A DNA stretch of 64,000 nt from Mesonia hippocampi (GTDB taxonomy: Bacteria; Bacteroidota; Bacteroidia; Flavobacteriales; Flavobacteriaceae): the NCBI RefSeq assembly GCF_014197445.1, contig NZ_JACIFO010000002.1:186001-250000 (forward strand). Direction: 5' to 3'. The first letter of the stretch is position 1. Every line of letters begins with the position of its first letter. Positions 30,940-46,652 of the stretch are shown here, in pieces. The position numbers and the translations under genes were made by a program. The notes under the pieces are model-generated. The model was given only the letters and a program-made list of their open reading frames with translations, made no database searches and was not told the DNA's origin.

Positions 30940-32250
30940 TTATCCAAACAACCACCTATATACGTCATTTCCATTGGCATACAATACTAAAGCGATAAGG
31001 ATAAAGAAGCCTATCATTTGTGCATACTCCATAAATTTGTCGTTTGGTTTTCTTCCTGTAATCATTTCATATAATAAGAACATCACGTGCCCGCCATCTA
31101 ATGCTGGAATAGGAAGTATATTCATGAAGGCCAAAATAATAGAAATAAGGGCTGTTGTCATCCAAAACGATTGCCAATCCCAAACGGAAGGAAACAGGTT
31201 CCCTATAGCTCCAAATCCACCTACTTGGGTTGCTCCTTTTTTGGTAAATACGTATTTAAATTGTGCTACATAATCGTGTAATGTCCAGTAAGCAAAATCA
31301 AATCCTTTTACAATGCTCTCCCCAAAGCCATACTCTTTTACGCTAATTTTAGGGGTATCAAAAGACATAAAGCCTACACTTCCTTTTTCGTTAGGGGCAA
31401 CTTGCAATTGCTTTATCTCGTTATTACGTTGCACCATAAGCGTTACTTGATCTTTTCCTTTTAACTCCTTACGAAGCTGATCGAGATATTCTACTTTTTT
31501 TCCTTCTGCTGCTACAATTTTATCGCCTTTTATAAGTCCTGCTTTTTGTGCTGGAGAATCGGGTAAAATAGAATCTACTTTTGCCAATACTTTTATTGCA
31601 AAAGGCTCTAAAACTCCTGACTGGAACATGGTATGCCCGATATCCTCTGGCAGAGAAAGCACTTCTTCTGTTCCGTCCTGGTGCCTTACCTTCATTGTTT
31701 CTACTCCTCGTACTAATAAATGCTGATTTACGGCACGCATATTTTCTAATTCTTCCCCATTGGTTTCTAAAACGATATCTCCGTCTTTAAAACCATATTG
31801 ATGAAAACTTTCATGAACCGAAAAACCTTCAGGAATAGCCTCTTTAGAAATATAGCCTGTACCCCAAACAAAAAGTACCATAGCATAAATTAAGAAGCCT
31901 AAAATTAGGTTTACCGTAACTCCTCCTAGCATAATAATAAGTCGTTGCCATGCAGGTTTACTACGAAACTCCCAAGGTTTAGGCGGTTGTGCCATTTGCT
32001 CTTTATCCATGCTCTCGTCTATCATCCCAGATATTTTTACATAGCCTCCTAAGGGAAGCCAACCTATACCGTAAACGGTATCGCCTATTTTCTTTTTAAA
32101 CAGTGCAAATTTCACATCGAAGAAAAGAAAAAATTTCTCTACGCGGGTTTTAAAAATTTTGGCAGGAATAAAATGACCTAACTCGTGTAAAACTATTAAA
32201 AATGAAAGACTTAATAATAGTTGAATGGCTTTTATTGCAAATGGACTCAT
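30940..32250 (-). CDS. rseP: site-2 protease RseP, membrane zinc metalloprotease
   Basis: 436 residues. The zinc site is His22-Glu23-x2-His26 in IVLHELGHF in the first membrane helix, with the second site Leu384-Asp385-Gly386 in PALDGGHV near the C terminus, and PDZ domains lie between (GFSVHESFHQYGFKDGDIV and LPDSPAQKAGLIKGDKIV). It cuts transmembrane segments of anti-sigma factors after a first periplasmic cut, and clears signal peptides. It has its own promoter. The gene upstream on the same strand (152-bp gap) encodes a TPR-CHAT protein. Confidence 0.95.
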   Translation of the reverse strand: MSPFAIKAIQLLLSLSFLIVLHELGHFIPAKIFKTRVEKFFLFFDVKFALFKKKIGDTVYGIGWLPLGGYVKISGMIDESMDKEQMAQPPKPWEFRSKPAWQRLIIMLGGVTVNLILGFLIYAMVLFVWGTGYISKEAIPEGFSVHESFHQYGFKDGDIVLETNGEELENMRAVNQHLLVRGVETMKVRHQDGTEEVLSLPEDIGHTMFQSGVLEPFAIKVLAKVDSILPDSPAQKAGLIKGDKIVAAEGKKVEYLDQLRKELKGKDQVTLMVQRNNEIKQLQVAPNEKGSVGFMSFDTPKISVKEYGFGESIVKGFDFAYWTLHDYVAQFKYVFTKKGATQVGGFGAIGNLFPSVWDWQSFWMTTALISIILAFMNILPIPALDGGHVMFLLYEMITGRKPNDKFMEYAQMIGFFILIALVLYANGNDVYRWLFG

Positions 32251-32401: not shown

Positions 32402-35400
32402 TTATTTTTTAATTTTCTTAAAATATGCATATACCAAAATCAAAATTGCAATTACAATTAATGCCAACCACAAACCATCTGTCCATTCTGATTTTTCTGC
32501 TAACAAAATAGGTGTTTTATCGCCAGAAAGCACAAAGCCTGCCCAGTAAAACGGGTGTTGTAAGTTAGCATTTGTTGTGTTTTTAAGATAGTCTAGTTTT
32601 GCATTTTGTAGCGCGGTTGCTTTATTTTCTCCATTTTGTAGGTTTTTGTAAAAAGCAACCATAATTTCTTTAGTAGATAGGTCTGGTGCATTCCAGAGGC
32701 TTGCAACAGTAGACGGAATTCCGGCGGTAGTAAACGCATAATGCATGGAAACGAGGTTACCTCCGTCCTTAAAACCTCCAATACCTGTATTACATGCACT
32801 TAAAACAGCTAGGTTTGCATTAAAACTTAGTCCGTACAACTCTGAAATATACATTTCATAATCTTGCTCTGAGTCTGAAAAAACCAAATTACTTAATTCT
32901 GGCGCTTTATCGTTAAGGTTAGAGTGCATTGCAAGGTGAATAACGGAAACATTGTTTTCTAAGGATTTGAATTGTGTTTTAGAGGCCTGATTTCCGATAT
33001 ATACATCTCCTTCTATAAACGATGAAATTTGAGTAACTTCTTCTTTTGCTCCTAATAAAGAGTAGGCTTCTCCTCTAACGGCTAGTTTACTTTCTGCTAG
33101 TTGTCCAGAATATTCTGGAGCGAAAAAAATTGCCTTTTCGGCTTTACTGCTAACAGGAGTACTGGTTTGCTCTGCTATAAAATAAAGACTCGGCGTGTAA
33201 GAAATAGTGTAATTTTCTACGAGGTACTTGTTATCTTTTACCAAAAGATCAAACGGTAGGTAATGCAGTACATCGTCTGGAATAATAGTAGTAACTGTGG
33301 CTGCTGTATCAAAGTCGTTTGTAAACAATTTTTTATACAAATGAGCTCCTTGCTTTTTTAAATCGTTTATGCCTACATTTAAATTGTTTATGCTTTCCAG
33401 GTAATGCTCTATTTCTTGTTTTATATTGTTGTAATTTTCTAGTTTAGTATACGTTATATTTCCCTCTCGAATAGTTATTTTAAACAACTGATTATCTAAA
33501 GCTTTAAACTTTATAATATTCTCGCCTGTCAAGCTTTTAATATCAATTGCAGGGCTTACAAAAGGGTTGTTGCTTTTATATTGTGTTGCAATTTTTTCGG
33601 TAACTTTTTTTAGTTCTAGTTCCTTCTCGAAAATTTGTTGTTTAAGGGTTTCTTCTTTTTGTTTTAAATATTCTTTTTTAAGGTATGTAATATAAGCCCT
33701 AAGGTATTGTTCTTCTTCTATAAGGTTGTAATGCTGTGTACTTCCTGCTATTTCTCTTTTTAACAAAAACTTATTTATAAATTCTTGCGAAGATACTTTT
33801 TCTATAAAATTAAGCAATTGGTTGTTTTCTTCATCTGAAAAAGGACGTTCTAAAGCACTGTTTATTAAACCTGCTGTTATTTTATCGAAGGTGTTTTTAA
33901 GGGTCTTGTTTAGAGGCGTATTCCCTATGTTGTTTTGGAATTGTGCTAATGCCAACCAATAGAGTTTTTCTTCTTCAGAGGAGTATTCTCCATAATATTC
34001 TCGAAAAGACTCGGCTAAACGCACCAATCTTACCGCATCTGAAATTGCTTCTCCAGGAACAAAGTTTTGCACCTCGCTTTCAGGAAGTTTAAATGTTATA
34101 TTTTGGTTTGATATTTTAATTAGAATTTGGTTGATAACCTCATATCCTAAGGCTAATTTATTTCTACTAAATAGGCATTCGGCTTTTAATTCTAATAGTC
34201 GTTGATCGTGTAGATTTCCTCCTGTTTTTTCTGCTTCATCAATTAAATCGAGTGCCTGCTGATAGTGCTTTTTTTGAAATAATATGTTAATCTCATCTAT
34301 TTTTACTTGTTGATTAAAGGTTTCTAGGGAATAAGGGGCTTTTTTAGAGTCAAAAACAACTTTTTTTGCTAGATTATTATACTTTTCAGCTTCTCCTGGT
34401 AAGTTATGACCTAAGTAATAACGAGTTACTATGCTTAAAATTCCTTTGTAATTAGCTTTTTCCACTTCATCAAGTTGGTTTTCTTGTGTGATTTTTATTA
34501 CTTCTCTTAGGTTTTCTAATATTAATTGTTCTTCACTTCTATCTCCTTGTTCGCTTTTATCCATGAGAATAGTTAAGTAGCTTCTGTATAAAGCAAACTC
34601 GAGTTTAAAACCAATCTGCGGGTTAGCGCTTAGTTCTTGCTGGTGCTTTTTATATAGTTTTAATGCTTTATTAATATAATTTATACTACTTTCATAATTA
34701 TTGTATTCTCTTTCAAAAAGAGCTAATCTCCTATATGTGTTAATTATCGATTCATTATGTAAAGATTCCATTTGCTCAAGAACTTCTTTAGAAGCTATTG
34801 TATATTGATATTCTTTTTGTGGAATATCCATAAACTGCGCATTATAAAGCAAAGCCATATTATAGTAAATTTTAGACTTCAACTCTAAGTCCTTGTCACT
34901 TTTAACCTTTAGTTCATCAAAAAGTTTCAGCCCTTTTTCATTGGTTTTAATAGCCTCTTCGTAATCTCGAGATAAAATTTTCATATATCCAGAAAACTCT
35001 AGCATTTCTATTAAATAGATAGTGTCTTTTTGAGTTGTTTCAGAAAAATAGTTAAAGGCTTTACCTAAATACTTTTCGGCCTCTTTTGGGTTATACATAT
35101 AATCAAAAGAATTTTCTGCCAATCTGCGATTAACACGACTCATTCTCTCTGGAGCTGCATTTGCTTCTTGCAAGGTATCAATTGCATTTTGCATTAACTG
35201 ATAAGCCTCTATATTTGATTTTTTTGTAAAAGAAAAACTGGCCTCGGCTTTTGTAAACAGCTGTAAGCCTCGTAACATTTTCTGAGTGGAATCTGGTGCT
35301 TTATCAGCTAGCTCTAATGCTTTTGTTCGATAATTTAAAGCTGCTTGAAATTGAAAGTTTAAATCAAGAGAATCGGCTTTTTTTGTATGCAAATCCCATT

Positions 35401-35467
35401 CATTTTGAGAAAAAAGATGAATACTTGTTAATAAAAAAGCAAAAATTAAAACAATTTTATTTTTCAT
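32402..35467 (-). CDS. membrane-anchored TPR-CHAT protein (putative caspase-fold peptidase) 1
   Basis: 1021 residues. A signal peptide (1-21), many TPR-like helical repeats (about 25-560), a helical linker with coiled-coil character (about 585-630), a CHAT domain (about 700-985) and a C-terminal membrane helix (about 999-1016) with a KKIKK tail. The CHAT catalytic pair is intact: His848 in VIHLAMHSN and Cys892 in LSACNTGIGG, plus the closing HPFYWAGFVLSGD. Topology puts the CHAT domain in the periplasm, anchored to the inner membrane. It is paralogous to the divergent gene at 35674. The substrate is unknown. Confidence 0.88.
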   Translation of the reverse strand: MKNKIVLIFAFLLTSIHLFSQNEWDLHTKKADSLDLNFQFQAALNYRTKALELADKAPDSTQKMLRGLQLFTKAEASFSFTKKSNIEAYQLMQNAIDTLQEANAAPERMSRVNRRLAENSFDYMYNPKEAEKYLGKAFNYFSETTQKDTIYLIEMLEFSGYMKILSRDYEEAIKTNEKGLKLFDELKVKSDKDLELKSKIYYNMALLYNAQFMDIPQKEYQYTIASKEVLEQMESLHNESIINTYRRLALFEREYNNYESSINYINKALKLYKKHQQELSANPQIGFKLEFALYRSYLTILMDKSEQGDRSEEQLILENLREVIKITQENQLDEVEKANYKGILSIVTRYYLGHNLPGEAEKYNNLAKKVVFDSKKAPYSLETFNQQVKIDEINILFQKKHYQQALDLIDEAEKTGGNLHDQRLLELKAECLFSRNKLALGYEVINQILIKISNQNITFKLPESEVQNFVPGEAISDAVRLVRLAESFREYYGEYSSEEEKLYWLALAQFQNNIGNTPLNKTLKNTFDKITAGLINSALERPFSDEENNQLLNFIEKVSSQEFINKFLLKREIAGSTQHYNLIEEEQYLRAYITYLKKEYLKQKEETLKQQIFEKELELKKVTEKIATQYKSNNPFVSPAIDIKSLTGENIIKFKALDNQLFKITIREGNITYTKLENYNNIKQEIEHYLESINNLNVGINDLKKQGAHLYKKLFTNDFDTAATVTTIIPDDVLHYLPFDLLVKDNKYLVENYTISYTPSLYFIAEQTSTPVSSKAEKAIFFAPEYSGQLAESKLAVRGEAYSLLGAKEEVTQISSFIEGDVYIGNQASKTQFKSLENNVSVIHLAMHSNLNDKAPELSNLVFSDSEQDYEMYISELYGLSFNANLAVLSACNTGIGGFKDGGNLVSMHYAFTTAGIPSTVASLWNAPDLSTKEIMVAFYKNLQNGENKATALQNAKLDYLKNTTNANLQHPFYWAGFVLSGDKTPILLAEKSEWTDGLWLALIVIAILILVYAYFKKIKK

Positions 35468-35490
35468 ATTGTTAAGGGTTGGTTGTATTA

Positions 35491-35498
35491 CAAATATA
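35491..35498 (-). promoter_or_regulatory. -7 element (TATATTTG on the minus strand) for the first CHAT gene
   Basis: A TAnnTTTG match 24 bp upstream of the start, in the 206-bp divergent region between the two CHAT genes. Confidence 0.4.
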
Positions 35499-35673
35499 AC
35501 TTTTAAAAATAATTAGCACATTAAAAAACTAGCTTATAGCCTTTTATACAGTTATTATTATTTGTTCTATTTTAGAATAGCGCACTTACCCTTATTTCCA
35601 AAAAACTATTTTAAAAAACATAATTAAAAATTTAACATTTTTAATACCTTTAAGTTTTAATTCCCTTTAAGTA

Positions 35674-38652
35674 ATGAGGTATCTGTTATTTCTATTCGTT
35701 TTTAATTTTTGTACACTACAAGCATTTTGTTACACCTACAAGGATAGCACCACTGTAAGAAAAGCTAAAGAACTTGTAGATGAAAAAGACTACAACAACG
35801 CATTGGCACTTTGGAAAGACATTAATAATCAATCTCCTGAAAATAAAGAATATACTGCTTATTACAACCTATGTAAAGCAAAAATAAAAGCAGATAATAG
35901 AAATTATAAAGAAGCCATAGAGCTTTACAAAAAAGAACAAAAAGCATTAGAAAATCATAAAGAATATTCAGGCTTACTTGTTAAAATTTACAACGGATTA
36001 TATCATGCATTAGCTTATTCTGGCAATTGGAACGAAGCCTTAAAAGAAGGAGAAGAAGGGCTAGCTTTAGTATACAAACTTAACGATATAGACATTACCG
36101 AAAAAGCAAATTACATCTACGATTTAGCTTACATTAACGACCGGTTAAAAAACTACCCAAAAGCTATCGAGCTATATAACCAATCTATAAATTTATACCT
36201 GCCACTAGAAAACAAAAACTTTGATATTGGGTTAGCTTACAACAATTTAGCTACTTGCTATGCTAAAATTGGGTACTTTACTATGCGCCTAGAAAGCTAT
36301 AAAAAAGCACAATACTATTGGGAGATAAATAAAGAGGAAACAGGAAAAAACTATTTAAACACCCTTTATGGTAACCTTTTAAAGCTTTATGCTGAATATG
36401 GCGACATTGACCACGCAAAAGACTATCACCTTGCCATTAATAACCTAATCGATATAGAAACAGAACAAAATATCAGCTTAATAGCAAGCGTTTATAATCG
36501 TAATATTTTGTTTTTTAACCTGGTAAATAATTTTGACGAAATAAAAAAGCAAAGTAAAAACTTTAAAACTTTTTTTTACAGTTTACCTAAACCCGAACAA
36601 CAAAAAATAAGTCATTGGCTATTGGCTAGCTTAAACACTACCCTAAATGTATACGTAAATCATAAACTAGATAAAGAAGCCCTTAACCTTGCTGACACCA
36701 TTATAAACCTTGCAGATACTTACAGGAAACCTTATGAAAAAATACACCCCTATGTAAAAACCAGTACCATTTATACAGAAGTAAAAAAACCGCTTTTGGC
36801 CATAGCTCAAATAGATAAAGCCATTGCCATTAGCAATCAGATAAATATAGGGTCTATTAACCTTGCCGCCCTTCAATTAAACAAGGCAAAACAACTACTC
36901 GAAATAAATAAACTAGATGAAGCAGAAATTTCGTTTCATAAAGGGGTTCGTTCACTTATAAATAAAGACTACACAGAACCTACAGACCTTATTAATTATT
37001 TTAAAGAAACCACTTTCGATTATTATCGTATTTCAGCAATAATAGATATTGCCGATTATTACCTTAAACACCACCAAAAGCTCAACAACAAACAAAGTTT
37101 AAGGCATGCAGCGACAGTTTATTTGTTAGCCGCAGAAAATTTTAATAAATATTACCAAAAAAACGCTTACAACTTATACTTAAACAGGTTAAATTCAAAA
37201 ATAACCGAAGGTATTTTAACTACGAGCATTCTTTTAGAAGAACCTATAAATACGGTAACCTTAACCCTGTTAGAGCACAATAAATCTCATGTATTAAGAA
37301 AAGAATTTTTAGCAAAACATTCTAAACTTGGTGTAGATAAAGCACTTATTTTAGAAAAAAATACTTCCCAAATAAAATTAGAGCAACTACGCTCTCAAAA
37401 AGAAACCAACCCAGACAGCATTACTCTAATAAAAACCAAGTTAGCCCGTATAGATGAAGAGATTAATAAGGCACAACCCATGTACTTAAATTTCTACTCT
37501 GGGAACTTTTCGGCAGATACCTTCCTCAAAAACATCAAAAAGAACGAAGCCATTATAGCTTATTTTATAGGAATAAAAAACAGTTATGCCATTGTTTATA
37601 CAAACCATAAAGCTTCTGTTTTTAAACTAGGAGACACTCAAAAAATAGAACCGCTTATTATTGCTTATCATCAACAATTAAAAGATCCTAAAGAAGATTA
37701 CGCAGACACCAGCAAACAATTGTACCAAGTTCTAATTGAACCTTTAGACAATCTTCTAAAAGAAAAAAATAAGCTCACTTTTATCCCAGATAAAAACTTA
37801 AATTATATTCCTTTTGAAACTTTACAAAGTGAAACATCACCACTGATAGAGGATTACGATATTTCTTATCATTCTTCTCTATCTATGTTACAAACCATAA
37901 ACAACGTTAACACAAATCATAACGCTTCAAAAAAAGCATTGGCAACTTTTGCCCCTAATTATACGGCAAACAAGAGTATAGAAATTGTTTCTAGGTCTAA
38001 TCGATTCTCTGCATTAGAAGGAGCTAAAAATGAAGCCCAAACCATTACAGATTATTTTAAAGGAGACGCTTATATCGCTAAAAATGCCACAAAACAAAAC
38101 TTTATCGATGCCACTACATCGTATCAGGTATATCATTTAGCAATGCACGCTATATTGCATGAGCAAGAAAATATTTCTCCTAGTTTGGTTTTCCAAGATA
38201 ATGAGCTTTTAAATATCAACGCTATTTACAATTTACATTTCCCTGCAGAACTGGTTGTTTTAAGTGCTTGTAATACAGGAATAGGAAAACTAGACCAAGG
38301 CGAAGGGCTTCTAAGCCTTTCTAGGGCATTAACCTATGCAGGGGTAAAATCTAATGTTTTTAGTTTATGGGAAGTTCCCGATAAAGAAACTGCCGAAATC
38401 ATGATTAATTTCTACAAGTATTTAAAAGAAAATAAAGAAAAAAACACCGCTTTGGCCTTAGCTAAAAAAGATTTTATCAAGGCAAATCCTGTTAAAGCTC
38501 ATCCTTATTATTGGGCGGGATTTGTAGTAAGTGGAGATGTTGCTGAAGTTGCTACAAAGCTTCCTTTTTACCAAAATGTTTTTTTTATTATTACCAGCGC
38601 TTTTTTTATCATTATTATTTTCATTTTGTTTTTTTACAAGAAGAAAAAATAA
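35674..38652 (+). CDS. membrane-anchored TPR-CHAT protein (putative caspase-fold peptidase) 2
   Basis: 992 residues with the same order as its divergent neighbour: signal peptide (1-20), TPR repeats (about 25-430, for example PKAIELYNQSINLYLPLENK), helical linker, CHAT domain (about 660-955) with His825 in VYHLAMHAI and Cys866 in VVLSACNTGIG, HPYYWAGFVVSGD, then a membrane helix (about 969-988) and a KKKK tail. Both catalytic residues are kept. The sequence is clearly diverged from copy 1 outside the CHAT motifs. It is convergent with the anti-sigma/sigma pair, 18 bp away. Confidence 0.88.
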   Translation: MRYLLFLFVFNFCTLQAFCYTYKDSTTVRKAKELVDEKDYNNALALWKDINNQSPENKEYTAYYNLCKAKIKADNRNYKEAIELYKKEQKALENHKEYSGLLVKIYNGLYHALAYSGNWNEALKEGEEGLALVYKLNDIDITEKANYIYDLAYINDRLKNYPKAIELYNQSINLYLPLENKNFDIGLAYNNLATCYAKIGYFTMRLESYKKAQYYWEINKEETGKNYLNTLYGNLLKLYAEYGDIDHAKDYHLAINNLIDIETEQNISLIASVYNRNILFFNLVNNFDEIKKQSKNFKTFFYSLPKPEQQKISHWLLASLNTTLNVYVNHKLDKEALNLADTIINLADTYRKPYEKIHPYVKTSTIYTEVKKPLLAIAQIDKAIAISNQINIGSINLAALQLNKAKQLLEINKLDEAEISFHKGVRSLINKDYTEPTDLINYFKETTFDYYRISAIIDIADYYLKHHQKLNNKQSLRHAATVYLLAAENFNKYYQKNAYNLYLNRLNSKITEGILTTSILLEEPINTVTLTLLEHNKSHVLRKEFLAKHSKLGVDKALILEKNTSQIKLEQLRSQKETNPDSITLIKTKLARIDEEINKAQPMYLNFYSGNFSADTFLKNIKKNEAIIAYFIGIKNSYAIVYTNHKASVFKLGDTQKIEPLIIAYHQQLKDPKEDYADTSKQLYQVLIEPLDNLLKEKNKLTFIPDKNLNYIPFETLQSETSPLIEDYDISYHSSLSMLQTINNVNTNHNASKKALATFAPNYTANKSIEIVSRSNRFSALEGAKNEAQTITDYFKGDAYIAKNATKQNFIDATTSYQVYHLAMHAILHEQENISPSLVFQDNELLNINAIYNLHFPAELVVLSACNTGIGKLDQGEGLLSLSRALTYAGVKSNVFSLWEVPDKETAEIMINFYKYLKENKEKNTALALAKKDFIKANPVKAHPYYWAGFVVSGDVAEVATKLPFYQNVFFIITSAFFIIIIFILFFYKKKK

Positions 38653-38670
38653 CGTTTTATCAACTAATAC

Positions 38671-39387
38671 CTACTTGATTGCTTTTAGTATTTTTTGGGC
38701 TTGTGCTGCTCGCGAAGCCTTACCTGCTTTTACTTTCTCTAAATATGTTATGGCATTAGTTTTATCTTGAAGCTTTAAATAACCCAATGCAATATACCAA
38801 TCAACTTGTTCTTGGAGTATTTTTGAAGCCTCCCAATTTTGGTTTTCCAACACCTTGATTGCTTCTGTAGTTTGGTTATCGGCCATTAAGCTAATTCCAT
38901 AATAAAAATTAAAATAAACCTCCTTGTCTTGTATATATAGTTTTTTTAAGGCTTCTGCCGCGTTGGCATAATCGCGATTATCGTATGCATTAAAGGCTTT
39001 TTTTACATCGCTTTTATCGGCAGTATTATCGCCTCGTACTGTTGGAACAACAACATTAGGATAAGGCTTAAAATTTTCGGCATAAATTTTATCATAATCA
39101 AGCGGTTGGTTAAAAAACCAAAATAAACCTACTCCTAACACTAAAACAGCAGCCACCTTCCAAACTACCGAAAATATGTTGGTTGATTTTTCGTTTTTAT
39201 CTACTTGCTTTAAGTATTCTTTAATCTCCGCTCCCTCTTCTTGCTTAATAGCTGCTTGTAGTGTTAACTGAAAAGAAACCTCTTTTTTAAAGTCCTCATC
39301 TTCTTCCAACAGCCGTTTCACCTCCTCTTGTTCTTCTGGGGTTAGCTTATGCTGAATATATTTTGCTATTAAATTAGAATGCTTCAT
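38671..39387 (-). CDS. membrane anti-sigma-like protein with periplasmic TPR-like repeats
   Basis: 238 residues. The cytosolic N terminus (1-70) has KYIQHKLTPEEQEEVKRLLE, typical of Bacteroidota anti-sigma factors, then one membrane helix (about 74-92), then a periplasmic part with TPR-like helices (DYANAAEALKKLYI, TTEAIKVLENQNW, KTNAITYLEKVKAG). It overlaps the end of the ECF sigma gene by 4 bp, so it is its likely inhibitor. It lies next to the CHAT gene, convergent. The anti-sigma role is inferred from topology and position. Confidence 0.8.
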   Translation of the reverse strand: MKHSNLIAKYIQHKLTPEEQEEVKRLLEEDEDFKKEVSFQLTLQAAIKQEEGAEIKEYLKQVDKNEKSTNIFSVVWKVAAVLVLGVGLFWFFNQPLDYDKIYAENFKPYPNVVVPTVRGDNTADKSDVKKAFNAYDNRDYANAAEALKKLYIQDKEVYFNFYYGISLMADNQTTEAIKVLENQNWEASKILQEQVDWYIALGYLKLQDKTNAITYLEKVKAGKASRAAQAQKILKAIK

Positions 39388-39929
39388 TTATTTTCCTTTA
39401 ACATCATTTCTCTTAACTGTTTTAAACAGCGCGATTTTTGGCTCTTTACTACATCTTTAGAGGTATATTTTAGTTGTTGTTTAATTTCCTCTAAAGATAA
39501 ATTTTCATAATAAAACATTTTCAAAACCTCTTTACATTTTCCGCCTAAGTTTTTATAAAAAAAACGCAGTTTTTTTATATTCTCCTCCTGAAGTTCTGTG
39601 TTTTCCTCGTTCTCATCCTTCAATAAGTACTCGAAATCTGTAATATCTTTTGGAGACATTTTCACCTTTAAACAGTTATATATTTTATATTTTCCTATAG
39701 CAAACAAATAGGTTTTTACAGAACACGATAAAGTTTCTAATTTACCCGAAACAATATTTTCGTATAGCGCAACAATAGCATCTTGATAAATATCTAGAAC
39801 TTCTTCTTTTGGTATAGAAAAGCGCGAAGAGTACAACAAAAACTCTTTTTTATACTGAGTATACACACGCCCTAAGGCGGTTTTATTACCAGATTTTATA
39901 TGTGCTATTAAACGTTTTTCTTTATTCAT
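39384..39929 (-). CDS. ECF-type RNA polymerase sigma factor
   Basis: 181 residues. Region 2 is in FSIPKEEVLDIYQDAIVALY and region 4 in GGKCKEVLKMFYYENLSLEE, a helix-turn-helix followed by KSQKSRCLKQLREMM. It is more diverged than the sigma factor at 15056, with an ECF length. The gene is coupled to the anti-sigma-like gene and divergent from a run of exported-protein genes, which are candidate targets. A -7-like element for it lies 111 bp upstream. Confidence 0.85.
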   Translation of the reverse strand: MNKEKRLIAHIKSGNKTALGRVYTQYKKEFLLYSSRFSIPKEEVLDIYQDAIVALYENIVSGKLETLSCSVKTYLFAIGKYKIYNCLKVKMSPKDITDFEYLLKDENEENTELQEENIKKLRFFYKNLGGKCKEVLKMFYYENLSLEEIKQQLKYTSKDVVKSQKSRCLKQLREMMLKENK

Positions 39930-40039
39930 TAATAACTAAAAGTTAGGCAAGTAAACATTTTTTTAAAAAAAATATAAAAATTAATGTTTACCTATTTCCA
40001 TTTTCTATATCAATTATAAAACCCTCGTGCATTACAGGG

Positions 40040-40126: not shown

Positions 40127-41962
40127 ATGAAAAAAAACTACTACACATTACTTGCATTTCTATTTGCACTGAGTGTTGCTGCGCAAAGCACCCGTTATGT
40201 TGATCCTACAGGAACAGATTCAGGAAACTGCCTAGACCCTTCTAGCGCCTGTGCAACAATAAATTACGCGTTAAGCGTAGCAGGAAGCGGTGACACTATT
40301 GCTATTGCTTCTGGCGTTTATACAGAACAGCTTGACATAACTAAAGAGATAACACTACAAGGTACAGGAAACAATCAACCTGGTGGTAGCATTATTCAGG
40401 CACATACCTCATCTGGACAAGCGACAGGAAGTGTAATTACTATAGACGGAAATTATATTGTTCAAATTGCAGACTTAATCATTAAAAATGGTGGAGCTAC
40501 ACTACCTAACAATCCTACCGGAGGAGGAATAATGTTAAAAAACGGAACTTTAAATCTAACCAATATTACTTTTATAAACAACGAAGCCTCTGAAGCTGGT
40601 GGAGGTTTATATAACCAGAATGGAACATTAACATTAAGTAATGTAACCTTCAACCACAATGAAGTTTTTAATGATAATTTATCTGCTGGCGGCGCAGGTT
40701 TATTCTCAATCTATGGGACGGTAAACCTCAGTAATGTTAGTTTTAATGCAAACCTAGCCACCGAGAGTCATGGCGGAGGGATGTTTCTTTCAGAAAGCAA
40801 CGGTACATTAACCGATGTTAGCTTTATAAATAACGAAGCTGAAGGTGGTGGTAGTGGCGGCGCTTTATCTATTAGTGAAAGTACACTGAGTTTTACCAAC
40901 ACCAATTTTACTGGAAATAAAACTGACGCAAATTCTGGTGGAGCTATATATGCAGAAAATAGTACACTTGATTTTGTTAGCACCAATTTCATTGAAAATG
41001 AAGCCTATCAGCTAGGAGGCGGAATATTTTCTATTAACAGTAACCTCACACTTTTTGATGTACTGCTTGACGAAAATATTGCAGGAATGGGAGGCGGCAT
41101 TATTTGTCTTGGAAGTAATACGGCCATCACCTCTATAAAAAACACCTATTTTAAAAATAACGAGGCAAGAGGTATCTACGGAGGAGGGCTTCTTAATGAA
41201 GGTACTACAGTAACATTAGTCAACACCTTATTTACTGGAAATAAAGCCATGGAAGCAGGTGGGGCTATCATCAATGCCGGGGAATTACACCTATTAAATA
41301 GTACCATCACCCAAAATGAAGCAACTCTACTAGGCGCAGGGGGTCTATATAATTTTGATGCCAATAGCAACATGACAATGACCAATAGTATTGTATGGGG
41401 AAATATAGCACCCGGAGCTCCAGACATTGCTAATAATGGTGATTTTATAGGAAGCTACTCTCTTTATGACAATTCAGATATTTTCAATGATGGCGATTTT
41501 GCTTGCGACAACTGCCTAAACCTTGCCCCTAATTTTGAAGATGTTGCAGGGGGTAATTTTAGGCTTGCAAGCAACTCGCCTGCTATTGACGCTGGCGACC
41601 CTAATACCAACCTCTCTTTATTCCCCACAAATAATAATAATACAATAGATTTAGATAATAACAATCGAGTACATGACAATAATATAGATATAGGAGCATA
41701 CGAATATGGCTCACTCTCTATAGACAACAGTAGTGCAATAACTCCGAATATTCGCACATACCCTAACCCTGTGACGAATGTACTCCATATCAAAACTCGC
41801 CACGAAATAAACAGTCTAAAACTGTATAGCATTACAGGGCAACACCTACAAACTTGGCAAAATCAAACTCAAATTAATCTAGCCACCTACGCTAAAGGAA
41901 TCTACTTCTTGCAAATACAAACCCCTAGAGGTATAAAAACAGAAAAGATAATTAAAAAGTAG
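40127..41962 (+). CDS. secreted parallel beta-helix protein with T9SS sorting domain
   Basis: 611 residues. The signal peptide ends at VAAQ (20). Repeats of the right-handed beta-helix kind follow, with recurring Gly-Gly-Gly and NxxF units such as GGGLYNQNGTLTLSNVTF and NNEA. A 'choice-of-anchor Q' type end (NLAPNFEDVAGGNFRLASNS then SPAIDAGDP) precedes a C-terminal type A sorting domain (YPNPVTNVLHI to KGIYFLQIQTPRG). It should cross the outer membrane by type IX secretion and be surface-attached or released. It is similar to polymorphic beta-helix surface proteins. Its 3' end is nearly the same as that of the next gene. Confidence 0.85.
   Translation: MKKNYYTLLAFLFALSVAAQSTRYVDPTGTDSGNCLDPSSACATINYALSVAGSGDTIAIASGVYTEQLDITKEITLQGTGNNQPGGSIIQAHTSSGQATGSVITIDGNYIVQIADLIIKNGGATLPNNPTGGGIMLKNGTLNLTNITFINNEASEAGGGLYNQNGTLTLSNVTFNHNEVFNDNLSAGGAGLFSIYGTVNLSNVSFNANLATESHGGGMFLSESNGTLTDVSFINNEAEGGGSGGALSISESTLSFTNTNFTGNKTDANSGGAIYAENSTLDFVSTNFIENEAYQLGGGIFSINSNLTLFDVLLDENIAGMGGGIICLGSNTAITSIKNTYFKNNEARGIYGGGLLNEGTTVTLVNTLFTGNKAMEAGGAIINAGELHLLNSTITQNEATLLGAGGLYNFDANSNMTMTNSIVWGNIAPGAPDIANNGDFIGSYSLYDNSDIFNDGDFACDNCLNLAPNFEDVAGGNFRLASNSPAIDAGDPNTNLSLFPTNNNNTIDLDNNNRVHDNNIDIGAYEYGSLSIDNSSAITPNIRTYPNPVTNVLHIKTRHEINSLKLYSITGQHLQTWQNQTQINLATYAKGIYFLQIQTPRGIKTEKIIKK
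41815..41958 (+). repeat. 144-bp identical direct repeat, copy 1 (T9SS domain coding end)
   Basis: Identical base for base to 43458-43601, 1643 bp apart. It encodes the second half of the sorting domain and ends at the stop region. The flanking upstream ~60 bp is similar but carries several substitutions. Confidence 0.95.
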
Positions 41963-42012
41963 AGTCTTTAATACACGCATAAATACCATTACTAACCCAC
42001 ATATTTTTAACT

Positions 42013-43605
42013 ATGAAAACAATTACAAACTTATTAACAGCAGTATTCGCACTTATATCTACCATGAGCTTAAACGCACAAACTTTTGAAATGGTCAAAG
42101 ATATTAACCATGGAAACTTAGACAGTACCCCAGAAGAACTTACCCCAACAGACAATTATTTGTTTTTTAGAGCAACAATTGAAGAACAACAAGGACAAAT
42201 GCTAGAACGCTTATGGAGAACCGATGGAACAGAAGCTGGCACCACAATAATAGCTGGCGGACAAGAAAACCTTATAAATCCCAGATACATGGTTTCCTTA
42301 AATGGAGTCCTATACTTTAGTGCTGCCAGTGAATACGATGGAAACGAATTATGGAAAACAGACGGAAACTCAACCCAACTCGTTAAAAACATTAACCTTA
42401 CCACCTACGCAGGAAGCAACCCCCGAGATTTAACCGTATTTAATAATAAAATTTATTTTTCTGCCGATAACGGAACAAGCGGAAGAGAGCTTTGGGTAAC
42501 CGACGGAACTGCTACAGGAACACATATATTAAAAAACATTAAGCCTAATGGAAGTGGGGATCCGTATGGCTTTACCGAATATAACGGGAAACTTTACTTT
42601 TCGGCTGATGATGGAACAAATGGCGATGAACTTTGGGTAACCGATGGTACTACTGCTGGAACACAACTATTAAAAGACATTAATCCTGGTGGAAACTTGC
42701 TTAACTCTACTAAATATAATGGGGAACTTTATTTTCTCGCTGATGACGGAACAAACGGAAGAGAGCTTTGGGTAACCGACGGAACTGCTACAGGAACACA
42801 ACTATTAAAAGATATTAACCCTAACGGAAGTTCGTTTCCTAGTCAACTTATAAAATATAACGGGCTACTTTATTTTCTCGCTGATGACGGAACAAATGGC
42901 GATGAACTTTGGGTAACCGATGGAACTACTGCTGGAACACAACTATTTAAAGACATTAATCCTAGTGGAAGTGGGGAACCGTTTGGCTTTACCGAATATA
43001 ACGGGAAACTTTATTTTTCGGCTGATGACGGAACAAATGGCTTTGAACTTTGGGTAACCGATGGAACCTCAGCTGGAACACAACTATTTAAGGACATTAA
43101 CCCTAACGGAAGTTCGTTTCCTCATCAATTTATAAAATATAACGGGCTACTCTATTTTAAAGCTGATAACGGAACAAATGGCGATGAACTTTGGGTAACC
43201 GATGGAACCTCCGCAGGGACACAAGTAATACAACCCGCTGTTTCTCCTAATAACAACCCTTTAGCAATAAAGCCTTTTTTTACAATCTTTGATGGTTCAT
43301 TATACTTTTCCGCCAATTACGATAGTAACGGACAAGAGCTTTGGAAGCTCACCACACCTAACATGTCTGTAAAAACAGAAAAACTTGCAACTGTTAATAT
43401 ATACCCTAACCCTGTGGCGAATGTTCTCCATATTGAAACTCGCCAAGAAATAAGCAATCTAAAACTGTATAGCATTACAGGGCAACACCTACAAACTTGG
43501 CAAAATCAAACTCAAATTAATCTAGCCACCTACGCTAAAGGAATCTACTTCTTGCAAATACAAACCCCTAGAGGTATAAAAACAGAAAAGATAATTAAAA
43601 AATAA
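42013..43605 (+). CDS. secreted ELWxxDGT-repeat protein with T9SS sorting domain
   Basis: 530 residues. The signal peptide ends at LNAQ. About seven or eight tandem units of 45-47 residues follow, each with a core like DDGTNGDELWVTDGT then AGTQLLKDINP and YNGxLYF. This looks like a beta-propeller-type repeat known in Bacteroidota secreted proteins. The C terminus is a type A sorting domain whose last part is identical in DNA to the neighbour at 40127. It is 50 bp downstream of that gene and 6 bp before the next one. The function is unknown, perhaps adhesion. Confidence 0.85.
   Translation: MKTITNLLTAVFALISTMSLNAQTFEMVKDINHGNLDSTPEELTPTDNYLFFRATIEEQQGQMLERLWRTDGTEAGTTIIAGGQENLINPRYMVSLNGVLYFSAASEYDGNELWKTDGNSTQLVKNINLTTYAGSNPRDLTVFNNKIYFSADNGTSGRELWVTDGTATGTHILKNIKPNGSGDPYGFTEYNGKLYFSADDGTNGDELWVTDGTTAGTQLLKDINPGGNLLNSTKYNGELYFLADDGTNGRELWVTDGTATGTQLLKDINPNGSSFPSQLIKYNGLLYFLADDGTNGDELWVTDGTTAGTQLFKDINPSGSGEPFGFTEYNGKLYFSADDGTNGFELWVTDGTSAGTQLFKDINPNGSSFPHQFIKYNGLLYFKADNGTNGDELWVTDGTSAGTQVIQPAVSPNNNPLAIKPFFTIFDGSLYFSANYDSNGQELWKLTTPNMSVKTEKLATVNIYPNPVANVLHIETRQEISNLKLYSITGQHLQTWQNQTQINLATYAKGIYFLQIQTPRGIKTEKIIKK
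42440..43225 (+). repeat. tandem 135-141-bp coding repeats
   Basis: Units beginning near GATGACGGAACAAATGGC recur within the 42013 gene. Neighbouring units are nearly identical in DNA, for example around 42606, 42745, 42886, 43027 and 43168, so the array has been recently amplified or homogenised. Confidence 0.8.
43458..43601 (+). repeat. 144-bp identical direct repeat, copy 2 (T9SS domain coding end)
   Basis: Identical to 41815-41958. See the first copy. Confidence 0.95.
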
Positions 43606-43611
43606 TAAGTC

Positions 43612-44184
43612 ATGAGAAAATTACTTTTTACCCTAATAACCTTGTTTTCAATAGGACTTATAGCCTGCGAAAACGATGACAATAAAAACAACCCTCCCAA
43701 TAATTCAGATTTTGGAGAAATTACACTTAAGGTTGCAGGAGACCTAAATGCTAATTTTTCTGGGATGGCAGATTTTCATTTATTAAAAATTTTAAATGTA
43801 GAAAGCTGGGAAGTAAATGGGCATGATTACAATCCCCAAACATTTTCTATTACTATTAGCAATAGAGCTATTAACAGCGCTTCTCAAAGACCAAACCCTG
43901 GTACTTATACCATAGGAAGTTCTACCAATGCTGATTTCTCAGTAGACCTTACCTATATTCCAGATGGAGATTTTATAAACACCGTAGAATTTAGCACCTC
44001 ATTATTAGCTGACTTGGCTGAACCTGCCGAAAACAGAGGAACCCTCACCATTACTTCTTCTAACGAAGATACCGTAAAAGGACATTTTGAATGTACTGCC
44101 TTTAGAATCGATGATGACCTAAATATTGTGGAAACCATAGAAATCTCTGGGGAGTTTACTGCAAATAAAAGAAGATTTGACTAA
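43612..44184 (+). CDS. lipoprotein, paralogue of the one at 46088
   Basis: 190 residues with a lipoprotein signal (FSIGLIAC, Cys19) and an acidic Asn/Asp linker. The beta-rich mature part ends with RGTLTITSSNEDTVKGHFEC and ISGEFTA, the same order as in the lipoprotein at 46088 (GSLTITDNSNNQLKGTFEF, NGTFHA). The two look like members of one calycin-like lipoprotein family common in Bacteroidota. It is 6 bp after the ELWxxDGT protein gene. No binding partner is known. Confidence 0.75.
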   Translation: MRKLLFTLITLFSIGLIACENDDNKNNPPNNSDFGEITLKVAGDLNANFSGMADFHLLKILNVESWEVNGHDYNPQTFSITISNRAINSASQRPNPGTYTIGSSTNADFSVDLTYIPDGDFINTVEFSTSLLADLAEPAENRGTLTITSSNEDTVKGHFECTAFRIDDDLNIVETIEISGEFTANKRRFD

Positions 44185-44219
44185 GCGTTTAACTTTAAAA
44201 ATAAATAACAATTAAAACT

Positions 44220-44732
44220 ATGAATTTAAAATCAACATTTTTTGGAATTTTAATAGGCCTTGGGCTGGTATTATCGGCACAAGCACAAGAAAACATCCGT
44301 ATAGGCGCCATGCTTGCTTATGGATCTGAAATAGAAAACCCAGGAATAGGTGTTAATGCAGAAATTCCTATTATGGAAAATCTAAACCTTGCCCCTTCCT
44401 TGATTTACTTTATCCCGAAAGAACAATACGGATTTAAAACAAACTGGTTTGAAATCAGTGCAAATGCTAATTACTATTTCCTTAAGCAATCAGGCTTAAA
44501 CGTTTACGCTTTAGGCGGTCTTAATTACACCCATCTAAAAACTTCATACGACGGAAAAAATATATGGGGAGTTACTAACGATGTTTCTGCTTCAGAAGGA
44601 CGCTTTGGGCTCAACCTTGGCGGAGGCGTTAACTTCCCTCTAGGAAAAATAACACCTTTTGCAGAGGTTAAATATGTTGTAATAGAAGACGGACAAGTAG
44701 TTGCAGGAGCAGGCGTAAAGTTTAATTTATAA
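44220..44732 (+). CDS. small outer-membrane beta-barrel protein
   Basis: 170 residues. The signal peptide ends at AQAQ (about 22). Alternating strands then run to the terminal GQVVAGAGVKFNL, with LGGGVNFPLGKITPFAEVKYVV typical of an eight-strand OmpA/OmpX-like barrel with a Gly-rich strand. It is in the same run of exported-protein genes (35 bp after the lipoprotein). Confidence 0.8.
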   Translation: MNLKSTFFGILIGLGLVLSAQAQENIRIGAMLAYGSEIENPGIGVNAEIPIMENLNLAPSLIYFIPKEQYGFKTNWFEISANANYYFLKQSGLNVYALGGLNYTHLKTSYDGKNIWGVTNDVSASEGRFGLNLGGGVNFPLGKITPFAEVKYVVIEDGQVVAGAGVKFNL

Positions 44733-44744
44733 ACCATCATAATT

Positions 44745-46001
44745 ATGAAAATGTTAAAACAAACCCCAAAAATTGTAGCCCTATTAATGGGCTCATTAAT
44801 GCTATTATCCTCTTGTTCTGAAGATGATGATGTGGCAACAGAACCAGAAGCAGAAATACTACCTCCCATTGTATTAGACTGCGATTATTTTAAAGAAGAT
44901 CGTATTTTAGAGAACGACCCACAAAGACCCATAGATTACATTGTAACCTGTTGGGCACGTGTACAAGGAAGCCTAAAAATAGAAGCTGGAGTAGTTATTG
45001 AATTTGAAAACCATGCAGGACTTAGAGTAGACCTCGATAATAACGTTTTTGAAATTAAAGGAACTTCTAGCGAACCTGTCATTCTATCGGGAACCTCTAA
45101 GCAAAAAGGGTATTGGCGAGGAATTTTTCTTTCAGAAGCACATAACCCTAACAACCTTATTGAACACACGGTTATTGAATATGCAGGTTCACAAAATTTA
45201 ACGGGTTCATCTCCCGTATATGAAGGTAGCTTGGCTATTAGAGGCTCTTCTGGAACCACCCCACAAGCCCTTACGTTAAATCATGTAGAAATAAGTAACG
45301 GAGGTAGTGTTGGAATAGATTACCATAGAGTTACAAAGCAAAATTCTGTTGCTACCTCCAACCTAATTATCACAGGAAATGAGGATGTCCCTGTAAAAGT
45401 TTCGGCAGAAATGGCTCATATTTTTGATAGCTCTTCTTCTTATAGCGGAAATGCCTCCGATTTCTTGAATATCACCACTTCATCTTATGAAATTGAAGAC
45501 CAAACCGTAACTTGGGAAAAGTTAGACGTACCTTATTTGGTAGATGGTCGAGTAAGTATTGGTGATGATGGTCACCTCACCATTGAAGCAGGGGTAGAAA
45601 TGGAATTTAAATCTGGAGCATACCTACAACCTTACGGTTTTCTTCCACCTTATAATTTAAGTCTTAAAATTATGGGAACGGCAGCAGATCCTGTACATTT
45701 AAGAGCTCATAACGATATTAACTGGGGCGGTATTCAATATGGCTTTACACAAGAAGACAATATTATAAACTACGCCATTATTGAAAATGCCAAAGGCGAT
45801 TTTCCGGTGGGAAACCATCAAAATACAGGGGCTATCTATATGCACGCAAGTCCTAAATTAAGAGTTTCCAACACCACGTTTAAAGATTTACAAAACTGTG
45901 CCTTTTACTCACCATACGGTGCCGATTATTTTGATAACCTGGAAGTAACCAATGTTACTTTTGATAATGTGGCAGGTGGCGAGTACTGCGATAATGATTA
46001 A
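44745..46001 (+). CDS. lipoprotein with right-handed beta-helix repeats
   Basis: 418 residues with a lipoprotein signal (LMLLSSC, Cys24) and an acidic start (SEDDD). The mature part has repeats such as GSLKIEAGVVIEFENHAGLR, EPVILSGTS and KGYWRGIFLSEAHNPNNLIE, typical of beta-helix cell-surface proteins in Bacteroidota. It is likely surface- or periplasm-exposed. The terminator at 46019 follows its stop. Confidence 0.8.
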   Translation: MKMLKQTPKIVALLMGSLMLLSSCSEDDDVATEPEAEILPPIVLDCDYFKEDRILENDPQRPIDYIVTCWARVQGSLKIEAGVVIEFENHAGLRVDLDNNVFEIKGTSSEPVILSGTSKQKGYWRGIFLSEAHNPNNLIEHTVIEYAGSQNLTGSSPVYEGSLAIRGSSGTTPQALTLNHVEISNGGSVGIDYHRVTKQNSVATSNLIITGNEDVPVKVSAEMAHIFDSSSSYSGNASDFLNITTSSYEIEDQTVTWEKLDVPYLVDGRVSIGDDGHLTIEAGVEMEFKSGAYLQPYGFLPPYNLSLKIMGTAADPVHLRAHNDINWGGIQYGFTQEDNIINYAIIENAKGDFPVGNHQNTGAIYMHASPKLRVSNTTFKDLQNCAFYSPYGADYFDNLEVTNVTFDNVAGGEYCDND

Positions 46002-46018
46002 TTTCTAACAGAACCCAC

Positions 46019-46063
46019 AAACGGCAAGCCTGATTTTATGAGTTAGTCAGTGGTTTGCCGTTT
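46019..46063 (+). terminator. terminator after the beta-helix lipoprotein gene
   Basis: AAACGGCAAGCC (46019-46030) pairs with GGTTTGCCGTTT (46052-46063, one G:T) and is followed by ATTTTCTT. It splits the run of exported-protein genes into a first and second part. Confidence 0.6.
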
Positions 46064-46087
46064 ATTTTCTTAATTTAATCTAATTTT

Positions 46088-46633
46088 ATGAAAAATTTCA
46101 ACCTTCTTTATACCGCATTGCTTATTTTTTCTTTCCTTTTATTTTCTTGTAATAAAGATGATGATACTGGTAACAGCAATAACAACAGCAACAATATAGG
46201 TGTCAACAAAATAGCTATGGATGTTTCTGGCTCGCAAACAGGCCACATGTCCGGAAATGCCTTTATAGAAATATACAACAGCCAAGGTTATAACACTTTT
46301 GAAATAGAAGGAGGTGATGCCTCCGAAGCTACTTTTAAAATAAATTTTTACACCTACAACGGCGGTAGCAACCCTGTGCCTTGGCCCGAAAAAGGAACAT
46401 ACCCATTAGATAGCGGCGCTGATATTATCAACGGGAAAGGCTATAAAGTAGGTTTTGAATATATTCCTGAGTGGCGAGACTATAGTAAAAATGTTACCGG
46501 AAGCCTGACTATTACCGACAATAGTAACAACCAGCTTAAAGGCACTTTTGAGTTTTCTGCCGATGAAAATGGAGACAATGGAAGTATTACAGTAACCAAC
46601 GGTACTTTTCATGCAGAAATAAAAGAAGAATAA
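46088..46633 (+). CDS. lipoprotein, paralogue of the one at 43612
   Basis: 181 residues with a lipoprotein signal (FSFLLFSC, Cys19), then an Asn/Asp-rich linker. Beta-rich, ending in GSLTITDNSNNQLKGTFEF and VTNGTFHAEIKEE, the same layout as the lipoprotein at 43612. Function unknown. Confidence 0.75.
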   Translation: MKNFNLLYTALLIFSFLLFSCNKDDDTGNSNNNSNNIGVNKIAMDVSGSQTGHMSGNAFIEIYNSQGYNTFEIEGGDASEATFKINFYTYNGGSNPVPWPEKGTYPLDSGADIINGKGYKVGFEYIPEWRDYSKNVTGSLTITDNSNNQLKGTFEFSADENGDNGSITVTNGTFHAEIKEE

Positions 46634-46652
46634 CCTCTTGATATAAAAAATT

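Follow-up and report, generated by a model that had tools for sequence, protein, structure and literature searches.

What do two TPR-CHAT proteins do beside an ECF sigma factor and a membrane anti-sigma-like protein in Mesonia hippocampi? The genes lie within a 64-kb window (the whole stretch of DNA analysed here), and the initial annotation had proposed that one of the CHAT proteins makes the first cut of the anti-sigma protein. Our analysis suggests that the locus is probably a proteolytic sigma-factor switch in which the CHAT proteins act as site-1 proteases, cutting the anti-sigma protein after Arg118 and thereby freeing the sigma factor.

Gene content and layout of the locus

Open reading frames and profile matches agree with the gene set first described, namely two TPR-CHAT genes, an anti-sigma-like gene, an ECF sigma gene and an adjoining rseP. 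The sigma factor gene (39384–39929, minus strand, 181 aa) satisfies the ECF sigma model (TIGR02937, 2.8e-15, 56.3 bits vs. a cut-off of 42.9) and overlaps the gene for the 238-aa membrane anti-sigma-like protein (38671–39387, minus strand) by 4 bp, so that the annotated coupling matches the ORF coordinates. CHAT2 (35674–38652, plus strand, 992 aa) is convergent with the anti-sigma gene, CHAT1 (32402–35467, minus strand, 1021 aa) is on the strand of the sigma/anti-sigma pair, and rseP (30940–32250, minus strand) matches TIGR00054 (6.7e-63). CHAT1 and CHAT2 are the only CHAT matches in the whole genome (2.59 Mb, 99.5% complete), and a search for RNA elements found nothing in the window other than two tRNAs.

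The closest sigma factor among the fetched loci is that of Myroides indicus (L126, 61%); the figures for the anti-sigma protein of that locus and for the CHAT of the M. indicus sigma–anti-sigma–CHAT run, compared with CHAT1, are 46% and 50%, respectively. M. indicus has the sigma–anti-sigma–CHAT1 operon without CHAT2; in Mesonia, CHAT2 seems to be a reversed insertion into such an operon, giving two proteases per anti-sigma protein.

The CHAT proteins and the anti-sigma protein

Profile matches to CHAT (PF12770; 5.4e-55 and 2.2e-61, 187.3 and 208.3 bits for a curated cut-off of 24) and catalytic residues place CHAT1 and CHAT2 among the CHAT peptidases as putative proteases. The His/Cys pairs, His848/Cys892 in CHAT1 and His825/Cys866 in CHAT2 (codons 38146–38148 and 38269–38271, plus strand), were confirmed at the positions annotated initially, and CHAT1 has Glu810 (33038–33040, minus strand) listed beside them. 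The annotated signal peptide appears in a hydropathy calculation as an N-terminal hydrophobic stretch, accompanied in both proteins by the C-terminal membrane segment and the Lys tail. Both TPR-CHATs are probably membrane-tethered and face the periplasm, a placement that reaches beyond hydropathy and model. The TPR repeats ascribed to both hold up for CHAT2, whose best Pfam TPR score is above the cut-off and whose AlphaFold2 model is a helical solenoid; the best scores of CHAT1 and of the anti-sigma protein fall below it.

For the anti-sigma protein, the AlphaFold2 model does contain the TPR-like domain that had been annotated as periplasmic. It comprises helices (residues 1–64), a membrane helix (73–92), a linker (106–122) and the TPR-like domain (123–237), that is, a helical part that would be cytosolic, a single membrane helix and a part that would be periplasmic. 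A hydropathy peak was present in 191 of 198 anti-sigma matches. Its N-terminal part matches the NCBIfam anti-sigma model weakly (19.9 bits vs. 100); gene overlap and architecture suggest that the protein binds and inhibits its sigma factor.

Conservation of the module

Sigma factor, anti-sigma protein and CHAT form a conserved module that is met again in many Bacteroidota, more often than chance would explain. The first 80 CHAT loci were the best 80 of 549 relatives and are therefore closer to the query than average; 52 of them carry the sigma/anti-sigma pair, including 33 of the 40 flanked by 5 kb or more on each side, and in 13 of the 80 the CHAT gene is divergent from the pair. Conversely, a CHAT gene was nearby for 25 of 30 anti-sigma matches. 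A second, wider sample, with flanks of ∼ 6.5 kb, was taken from 111 anti-sigma matches, 21 of which had already been seen; the best 80 of the other 90 were used, leaving out 10 weaker ones, and 54 of these 80 loci were linked. The initial annotation had suggested looking for such co-occurrence and regarded independent occurrence as speaking against its proposal; what we found is linkage in many genomes, albeit incomplete, as 28 of the best 80 of 549 relatives, several of them on short contigs, show no pair.

On neighbourhood counts for these loci we rejected RseP as a module member, although it had been included in the set: rseP gave a weak match on one of the best 80 of 549 relatives (L169) and none on the 80 loci of the second sample, and beside the Mesonia locus it looks like a chance neighbour. 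Because rseP is absent from the conserved gene set, a second cut by RseP would follow from general knowledge; RseP encoded elsewhere in the genome could still act.

A conserved linker residue and its match in the CHAT domain

The juxtamembrane linker, FKPYPNVVVPTVRGDNT (39022–39072, minus strand), is the most conserved of the five regions compared (2.72 vs. 1.59 for the TPR part) despite having no predicted structure in the AlphaFold2 model. Within it, Arg118 (39034–39036, minus strand), the residue after which we propose cleavage (VR|GD), ranks third by conservation among all anti-sigma columns. Across 114 anti-sigma/CHAT pairs this column holds R in 81, K in 10, M or L in 19 and other residues in four; the residue following R or K is G (65) or S (51), together 116 of 139 linked cases.

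The type of linker residue appears to be matched by CHAT position 787 (CHAT2 Glu787, 38032–38034, plus strand), which is Glu in 88 of 91 pairs with an R/K linker vs. one of 19 with an M/L linker, the latter being a truncated CHAT (L101). No other scanned CHAT column splits R/K from M/L pairs by acidity. The catalytic columns are kept in both classes, with His at 825 and Cys at 866 each found in 90 of 91 R/K pairs and 18 of 19 M/L pairs. Among the three R/K exceptions, L203 and L205 carry Asp at 864, two residues before the catalytic Cys, as does L287 of the later sample. Glu787 is also present in 50 of the 54 CHAT pieces left without a partner by the pairing script (some with an anti-sigma gene on the locus, two of them doubtful CHATs), and is therefore the usual state of the family. 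By analogy with metacaspases, residue 787 may line the substrate pocket.

A prediction set beforehand was borne out by three of three M-type pairs (no acid), which sit in an M clade already seen, and by 43 of 44 readable R/K pairs (acid present). Counted by the first-called labels, 153 of the 155 pairs follow the rule (132 R/K with the acid, 21 M/L without it, two against), in a count that leaves out L101, the four 'other' rows, the second match of L261, L283, L284, L334 and four ambiguous rows and takes in L285 and L289. L204 and L289 fit the description of the two disagreeing pairs; L289 combines an R linker and no acid with a divergent CHAT. Linker classes of L163, L169 and L265 were revised post hoc to R and that of L204 to M, and L304, L308 and L324, noted as ambiguous beforehand, were later assigned to M.

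On the tree, the first-called labels imply one switch of linker type and three of the acid, whereas with labels revised after viewing the CHATs each switches three times, one of these on well-supported branches; with so few independent switches, a sign test on co-switching, which would take at least six of them in the linker, could not reach significance. The first tree left out L101 and the second matches of L261 and L150; the later one also left out L283, L284 and L334 (site off the stretch), as well as L328 (5.3 kb apart and ambiguous), L289, which contradicts our reading, and L285, which fits it.

A −35-like element and putative targets

A de novo search upstream of 155 AT-rich sigma genes, that of Mesonia among them (25 starts on the real set, 10 on each of three base-pair shuffles), found a −35-like motif, represented here by AAATAGGTAAACA (39985–39997, minus strand) upstream of the sigma gene, which makes autoregulation possible. 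The motif exceeds the 95% level of other genes in 41% of sigma genes, which are its training set, vs. 5.5% of CHAT genes; it is not enriched before CHAT genes, which were accordingly rejected as sigma-promoter targets. A putative target is the divergent run at 40127–48419 (plus strand), mostly of surface and outer-membrane protein genes. It encodes two T9SS-tailed proteins, one with ELWxxDGT repeats, two DUF6252-like proteins, a small outer-membrane-like protein, a 418-aa lipoprotein-like protein and a PQQ-repeat protein, and relatives of the gene at 44745–46001 lie on the far side of sigma, on the opposite strand, in L087, L090, L126 and L276. The genes divergent from sigma belong to diverse families, the commonest being OmpA (6 of 63 scanned), so we claim no single target class.

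A proposed switch and its alternatives

In the proposed switch, the cytosolic part of the anti-sigma protein, which would span the inner membrane once, captures the ECF sigma factor, and both tethered TPR-CHATs would face the same periplasm as its linker. On a signal perhaps sensed through the TPR part of the CHATs, one or both would cut the exposed linker after Arg118 and so remove the TPR domain; general machinery, of which a site-2 protease may be part, would then clear the stub, and the freed sigma factor would activate its own gene and, probably, the divergent surface-protein genes. It is the conserved, unstructured linker and the matching CHAT residue that point to CHAT as the maker of the first periplasmic cut, and together with the linkage they lend sequence support to that part of the original proposal.

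Linkage alone would equally fit CHATs that are downstream effectors, driven by sigma and cutting other envelope proteins while the anti-sigma protein is controlled otherwise, and the 13 divergent CHATs among the best 80 of 549 relatives are in line with this. We consider it unlikely: the −35-like element is not enriched before CHAT genes, and it leaves the conserved linker residue and its match at 787 unexplained. The CHAT might instead be a non-cleaving sensor partner that binds the anti-sigma TPR domain, the linker being kept for another protease or for folding. Helical-repeat domains are modelled in both CHAT2 and the anti-sigma protein, and R or K is kept at the Arg118 column in 24 of 30 anti-sigma proteins without CHAT on the locus, which also speaks against cleavage by CHAT, and in six of nine genomes without any CHAT match (G785, G815, G731, G018, G463 and G275). 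In the other three (G073, G365 and G239), however, the residue is lost, and a non-cleaving partner accounts neither for the conserved His/Cys of linked CHATs nor for the match between 787 and the linker, which makes this reading decidedly improbable.

A link to defence comes from the CHAT protease of type III-E CRISPR, as presented in PMC10028731, and from weak matches of the CHAT2 repeats to Csm6_6H (under the cut-off) and Csx1 (3.9e-5): the CHATs could be defence or cell-death proteases that travel with the sigma pair as a unit but function separately. The only other defence-library match is a weak one of sigma to GajA (6.9e-4), and most neighbouring genes encode surface and outer-membrane proteins; we rejected a defence system on these few weak matches and give separate functions very little credence.

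Relation to known systems

According to PMC10028731, the TPR-CHAT protein Csx29 cuts Csx30, an inhibitor of an ECF-like sigma factor, once, in a flexible loop between residues 427 and 429, and deletion of M427 prevents the cut. The two systems thus share a TPR-CHAT protease, an ECF-like sigma factor and a sigma-inhibiting protein; in the type III-E system, however, Csx29 acts together with Cas7-11 and is activated by target RNA. The Mesonia CHATs, in contrast, seem to be tethered to the membrane on its periplasmic side, and the anti-sigma protein combines a membrane helix with a TPR-like domain. Sequence alignments of Csx29 start beyond site 787, which lies outside that comparison. Cas7-11 is about 1600 aa in size, and because the longest ORF in the 64-kb window is CHAT1 (1021 aa), the window holds no gene of that size and hence no Cas7-11 effector of a type III-E CASP; the profile scan at the site covered nine genes. 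The Mesonia locus is thus not a type III-E member, although it may work like one.

Structural neighbours of the CHAT2 model include Csx29 and DdvA (PDB 8rot and 8rw5, E about 1e-11, TM-scores 0.24–0.26); DdvA also gives a weak sequence match (E 0.033). In Myxococcus xanthus, the ECF sigma factor DdvS is freed by DdvA inactivation (PMC4374960). DdvA resembles the Mesonia system as a transmembrane anti-sigma factor bearing a CHAT domain and differs in that anti-sigma and CHAT seem to be one molecule, judging from entry titles and molecule name.

In the RseA/DegS/RseP system, a membrane anti-sigma factor is cut first in the periplasm and later steps free sigma. The Mesonia anti-sigma protein would likewise be cut first in the periplasm, but with a CHAT cysteine protease in the role of DegS, and a site-2 protease gene is not conserved beside the module. 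Regulated proteolysis of the RseA type is discussed in PMC10028731 as well. CHAT genes occur in the genetic context of the ECF54 sigma group, for which PMC8999054 proposes proteolysis, with control described there without an anti-sigma factor. A full-text literature search, judged by titles and abstract beginnings, returned no description of a CHAT/sigma/anti-sigma module in Bacteroidota; the ECF reclassification may list it.

The chances are slightly better than even that, across Bacteroidota, periplasmic tethered CHATs serve as site-1 proteases for this family of TPR anti-sigma proteins, cutting after a set basic residue (or after Met/Leu where the protease is altered to match), and that the locus studied here, with two such proteases stacked on one anti-sigma protein, is a two-input switch. 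The analysis names Arg118 as the residue to be cut and 787 as the position in the protease that may select it. If the reading is correct, a sizeable set of caspase-like proteins in bacteria would have a job outside CRISPR, a family of Bacteroidota sigma/anti-sigma pairs would gain a mechanism, and the type III-E logic of a CHAT protease cutting an anti-sigma protein would have a CRISPR-independent counterpart in the periplasm.

Conservation of the CHAT, sigma and anti-sigma genes

ORF and domain scans matched the five genes, in position and domain content, described in the initial annotation: rseP (30940–32250, minus strand), CHAT1 (32402–35467, minus), CHAT2 (35674–38652, plus) and the genes for a membrane anti-sigma-like protein (38671–39387, minus) and an ECF sigma factor (39384–39929, minus). 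A 4-bp overlap joins the sigma gene to the anti-sigma gene. Between the ends of CHAT2 and the anti-sigma gene lie 18 bp, and the starts of the divergent CHAT1 and CHAT2 are 206 bp apart. These two were the only CHAT matches in a search of the M. hippocampi genome.

CHAT genes are patchily distributed among relatives (17 of 60 related genomes), and the best anti-sigma and sigma matches in these 60 mostly adjoin them, one exception being G059, with the sigma pair and CHAT on separate contigs. Among the best 80 CHAT loci of 549 relatives in the genome collection, 52 carry a sigma/anti-sigma pair, which is convergent with CHAT in 34 cases (32 within 500 bp), divergent in 13, upstream in line in three and downstream in two; where at least 5 kb was available on both sides, the pair was present at 33 of 40 loci. 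Conversely, in 148 genomes of the order, a CHAT gene lay on the fetched stretch for 25 of 30 anti-sigma matches (20/24 newly fetched loci and 5/6 from earlier sets) and none was found on the stretches around the other five (L100, L184, L200, L206 and L207). In a wider phylum sample CHAT was within about 6.5 kb at 54 of 80 anti-sigma loci. The search profiles were built from CHAT-linked proteins, which may bias the matches toward linked ones. The proposed co-occurrence is thus borne out, and the CHAT, sigma and anti-sigma genes form a real module occurring in many Bacteroidota genomes. A separate locus (L256) has a row of four CHAT-like ORFs on one 10.9-kb contig with no anti-sigma match.

For the site-2 protease gene rseP, proposed for the second cut in the initial annotation, membership of this set is not supported. 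A single weak RseP match was found among the 80 CHAT loci (L169, E 1e-5) and none at 80 further loci of the wider phylum sample, so rseP looks like a chance neighbour.

The anti-sigma linker

In the AlphaFold2 model of the anti-sigma protein (mean pLDDT 87.5), N-terminal helices (residues 1–64), a membrane helix (73–92) and a short helix (98–105) are followed by a linker without secondary structure (106–122) and a helical-repeat domain resembling TPR proteins of known structure (lowest Foldseek E 1.7e-3). Of five regions compared, conservation is highest in the linker, with a mean relative entropy of 2.72 (membrane helix 2.0, short helix 1.78, N-terminal part 1.71, TPR part 1.59), and Arg118 ranks third among all columns. 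The linker sequence differs by subgroup with Arg or Lys retained. Of 139 CHAT-linked anti-sigmas with Arg or Lys at this column, 116 have Gly (65) or Ser (51) as the next residue; as Arg and Lys are common residues, the weight rests on the aligned position. We propose that the anti-sigma would be cut in this linker, after Arg118. In family f104, 15 distant anti-sigmas (L331–L347 minus L337 and L345) have quite different linkers with Arg kept before Ser, Ala, Asn or Glu, and a same-strand CHAT 0.9–6 kb away in 10 of the 15.

Arg or Lys is present at this column in 24 of 30 anti-sigmas with no CHAT on the locus and absent in six. Nine of the genomes that carry these 30 anti-sigmas gave no CHAT match anywhere; the residue is lost in three (G073, G365 and G239) and kept in six (G785, G815, G731, G018, G463 and G275), where G018 is 80% complete and the G463 alignment doubtful. 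That loss of the residue follows loss of CHAT is suggested at most. Three loci of one genus (g135; L299, L311 and L325) with DPGLP/DPGP-type anti-sigmas and no CHAT on the locus lack the linker Met (VTVQGD, SVTQEG and VTTGLL).

Match between the linker and CHAT position 787

Across 114 CHAT/anti-sigma pairs, the Arg118 column holds Arg in 81, Lys in 10, Met or Leu in 19 and other residues in four. CHAT position 787 (CHAT2 numbering) is Glu in 88 of the 91 Arg/Lys pairs; the 19 Met/Leu pairs have Thr (12), Leu (3) or, once each, Ile, Ala, Tyr and Glu there, the lone Glu belonging to a truncated CHAT misaligned at 787 (L101). Among the sufficiently filled columns of the CHAT tail, this alone differed in acidity between the groups by more than 0.6. 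In two Arg/Lys exceptions (L203, L205) an Asp stands at 864, two positions ahead of the catalytic Cys866; the third (L204) has an M-like linker and three of the 'other' linkers (L163, L169 and L265) have Arg nearby and a CHAT with Glu787, all on re-readings that postdate sight of their CHATs, and the fourth (L150) is a spurious second match. Glu787 was also found in 50 of 54 CHAT pieces left unpaired by the script (some with an anti-sigma on the locus, two of them doubtful CHATs) and is therefore the usual state of the family.

Position 787 is a putative pocket residue: the CHAT LxGAxxEA stretch resembles the GCxNDA stretch of metacaspases, whose Asp lines the S1 pocket. An Asp two before the Cys is another S1-pocket-type place in metacaspases and clostripain. 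In a CHAT subgroup with LDAC replacing LSAC (L203, L205 and L287), all three partner linkers carry Lys, which would fit a shift of the acidic residue to another place in the pocket.

For 80 new loci the linkers were read alone and a prediction was recorded before the CHATs were inspected: CHATs without the acid for L269, L270 and L271, four ambiguous cases and CHATs with it for all others. The acid was absent in all three M-type cases and present in 43 of 44 readable Arg/Lys pairs (L287 via Asp864; three of the 47, L283, L284 and L334, were unreadable), L289 breaking the pattern with a divergent CHAT and no acid. Three ambiguous cases (L304, L308 and L324) had no acid and, on re-reading, Met near the site; the fourth (L328), a doubtful pair 5.3 kb apart, had Glu. 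The three M-type rows fall inside the M clade already known and are best read as confirming it while adding no event.

With the original labels and unclear rows omitted, linker and CHAT agree in 153 of 155 pairs, but a quick tree shows a single change of linker type against three of the acid. With revised labels, each changes twice among 111 pairs and three times among 159, in the larger set in step for every row, owing partly to the revision and to the dropping of L289; one of these three changes sits on well-supported branches. The number of changes on the trees is too small for any sign test to reach significance.

Possible origin and genomic context

Among the fetched loci, the closest run to the window sigma, anti-sigma and CHAT1 (61, 46 and 50% identity) is that of Myroides indicus (L126), where the three genes are in line, and CHAT2 is nearest to CHATs each convergent to its own anti-sigma (L276, L090 and L087). 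CHAT2 therefore seems to have been inserted, reversed, between the anti-sigma gene and CHAT1. Two CHATs beside one anti-sigma also occur at L143 and L202.

The motif AAAAGGTTAACA stood out in the upstream regions of 155 AT-rich sigma genes taken together (score 362 versus 83 to 93 in three shuffles, which were run with fewer starts), and in the window lies at 39997 on the minus strand; it was not enriched upstream of CHAT genes. The window genes divergent from sigma encode mostly surface or outer-membrane proteins and are partly common to close relatives; those of more distant relatives are diverse. The window genes include two DUF6252-like ones, at 43612–44184 (under the Pfam cut-off) and 46088–46633, and relatives of the latter also lie beyond the sigma gene in L090 and L276. 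A DXP synthase gene divergent from the sigma/anti-sigma side in L100 and L201 is probably a chance neighbour.

Relation to known systems

The CHAT2 model is near separase, Csx29 and DdvA (Foldseek E roughly 1e-11 to 1e-13; TM-scores, with the model as the reference for normalisation, under 0.3); DdvA is a transmembrane anti-sigma factor with the molecule name 'CHAT domain-containing protein'. ECF54 sigmas also have CHAT genes nearby, and a review describes their control as lacking an anti-sigma (PMC8999054). Full-text literature searches, judged by title or abstract start, turned up no sigma-freeing CHAT protease that works in the periplasm and has a readable site. One report describes Csx29, a TPR-CHAT protein like those of the window, as the protease of a sigma inhibitor, Csx30; the cut falls within a flexible loop and is blocked by deletion of M427 (PMC10028731). 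What stands of the initial proposal, RseP aside, is its core, supported by sequence, with few evolutionary events behind the best of the evidence: a CHAT protein would cut the anti-sigma and thereby free the sigma factor, and a protease acting in this way is of a kind already known.
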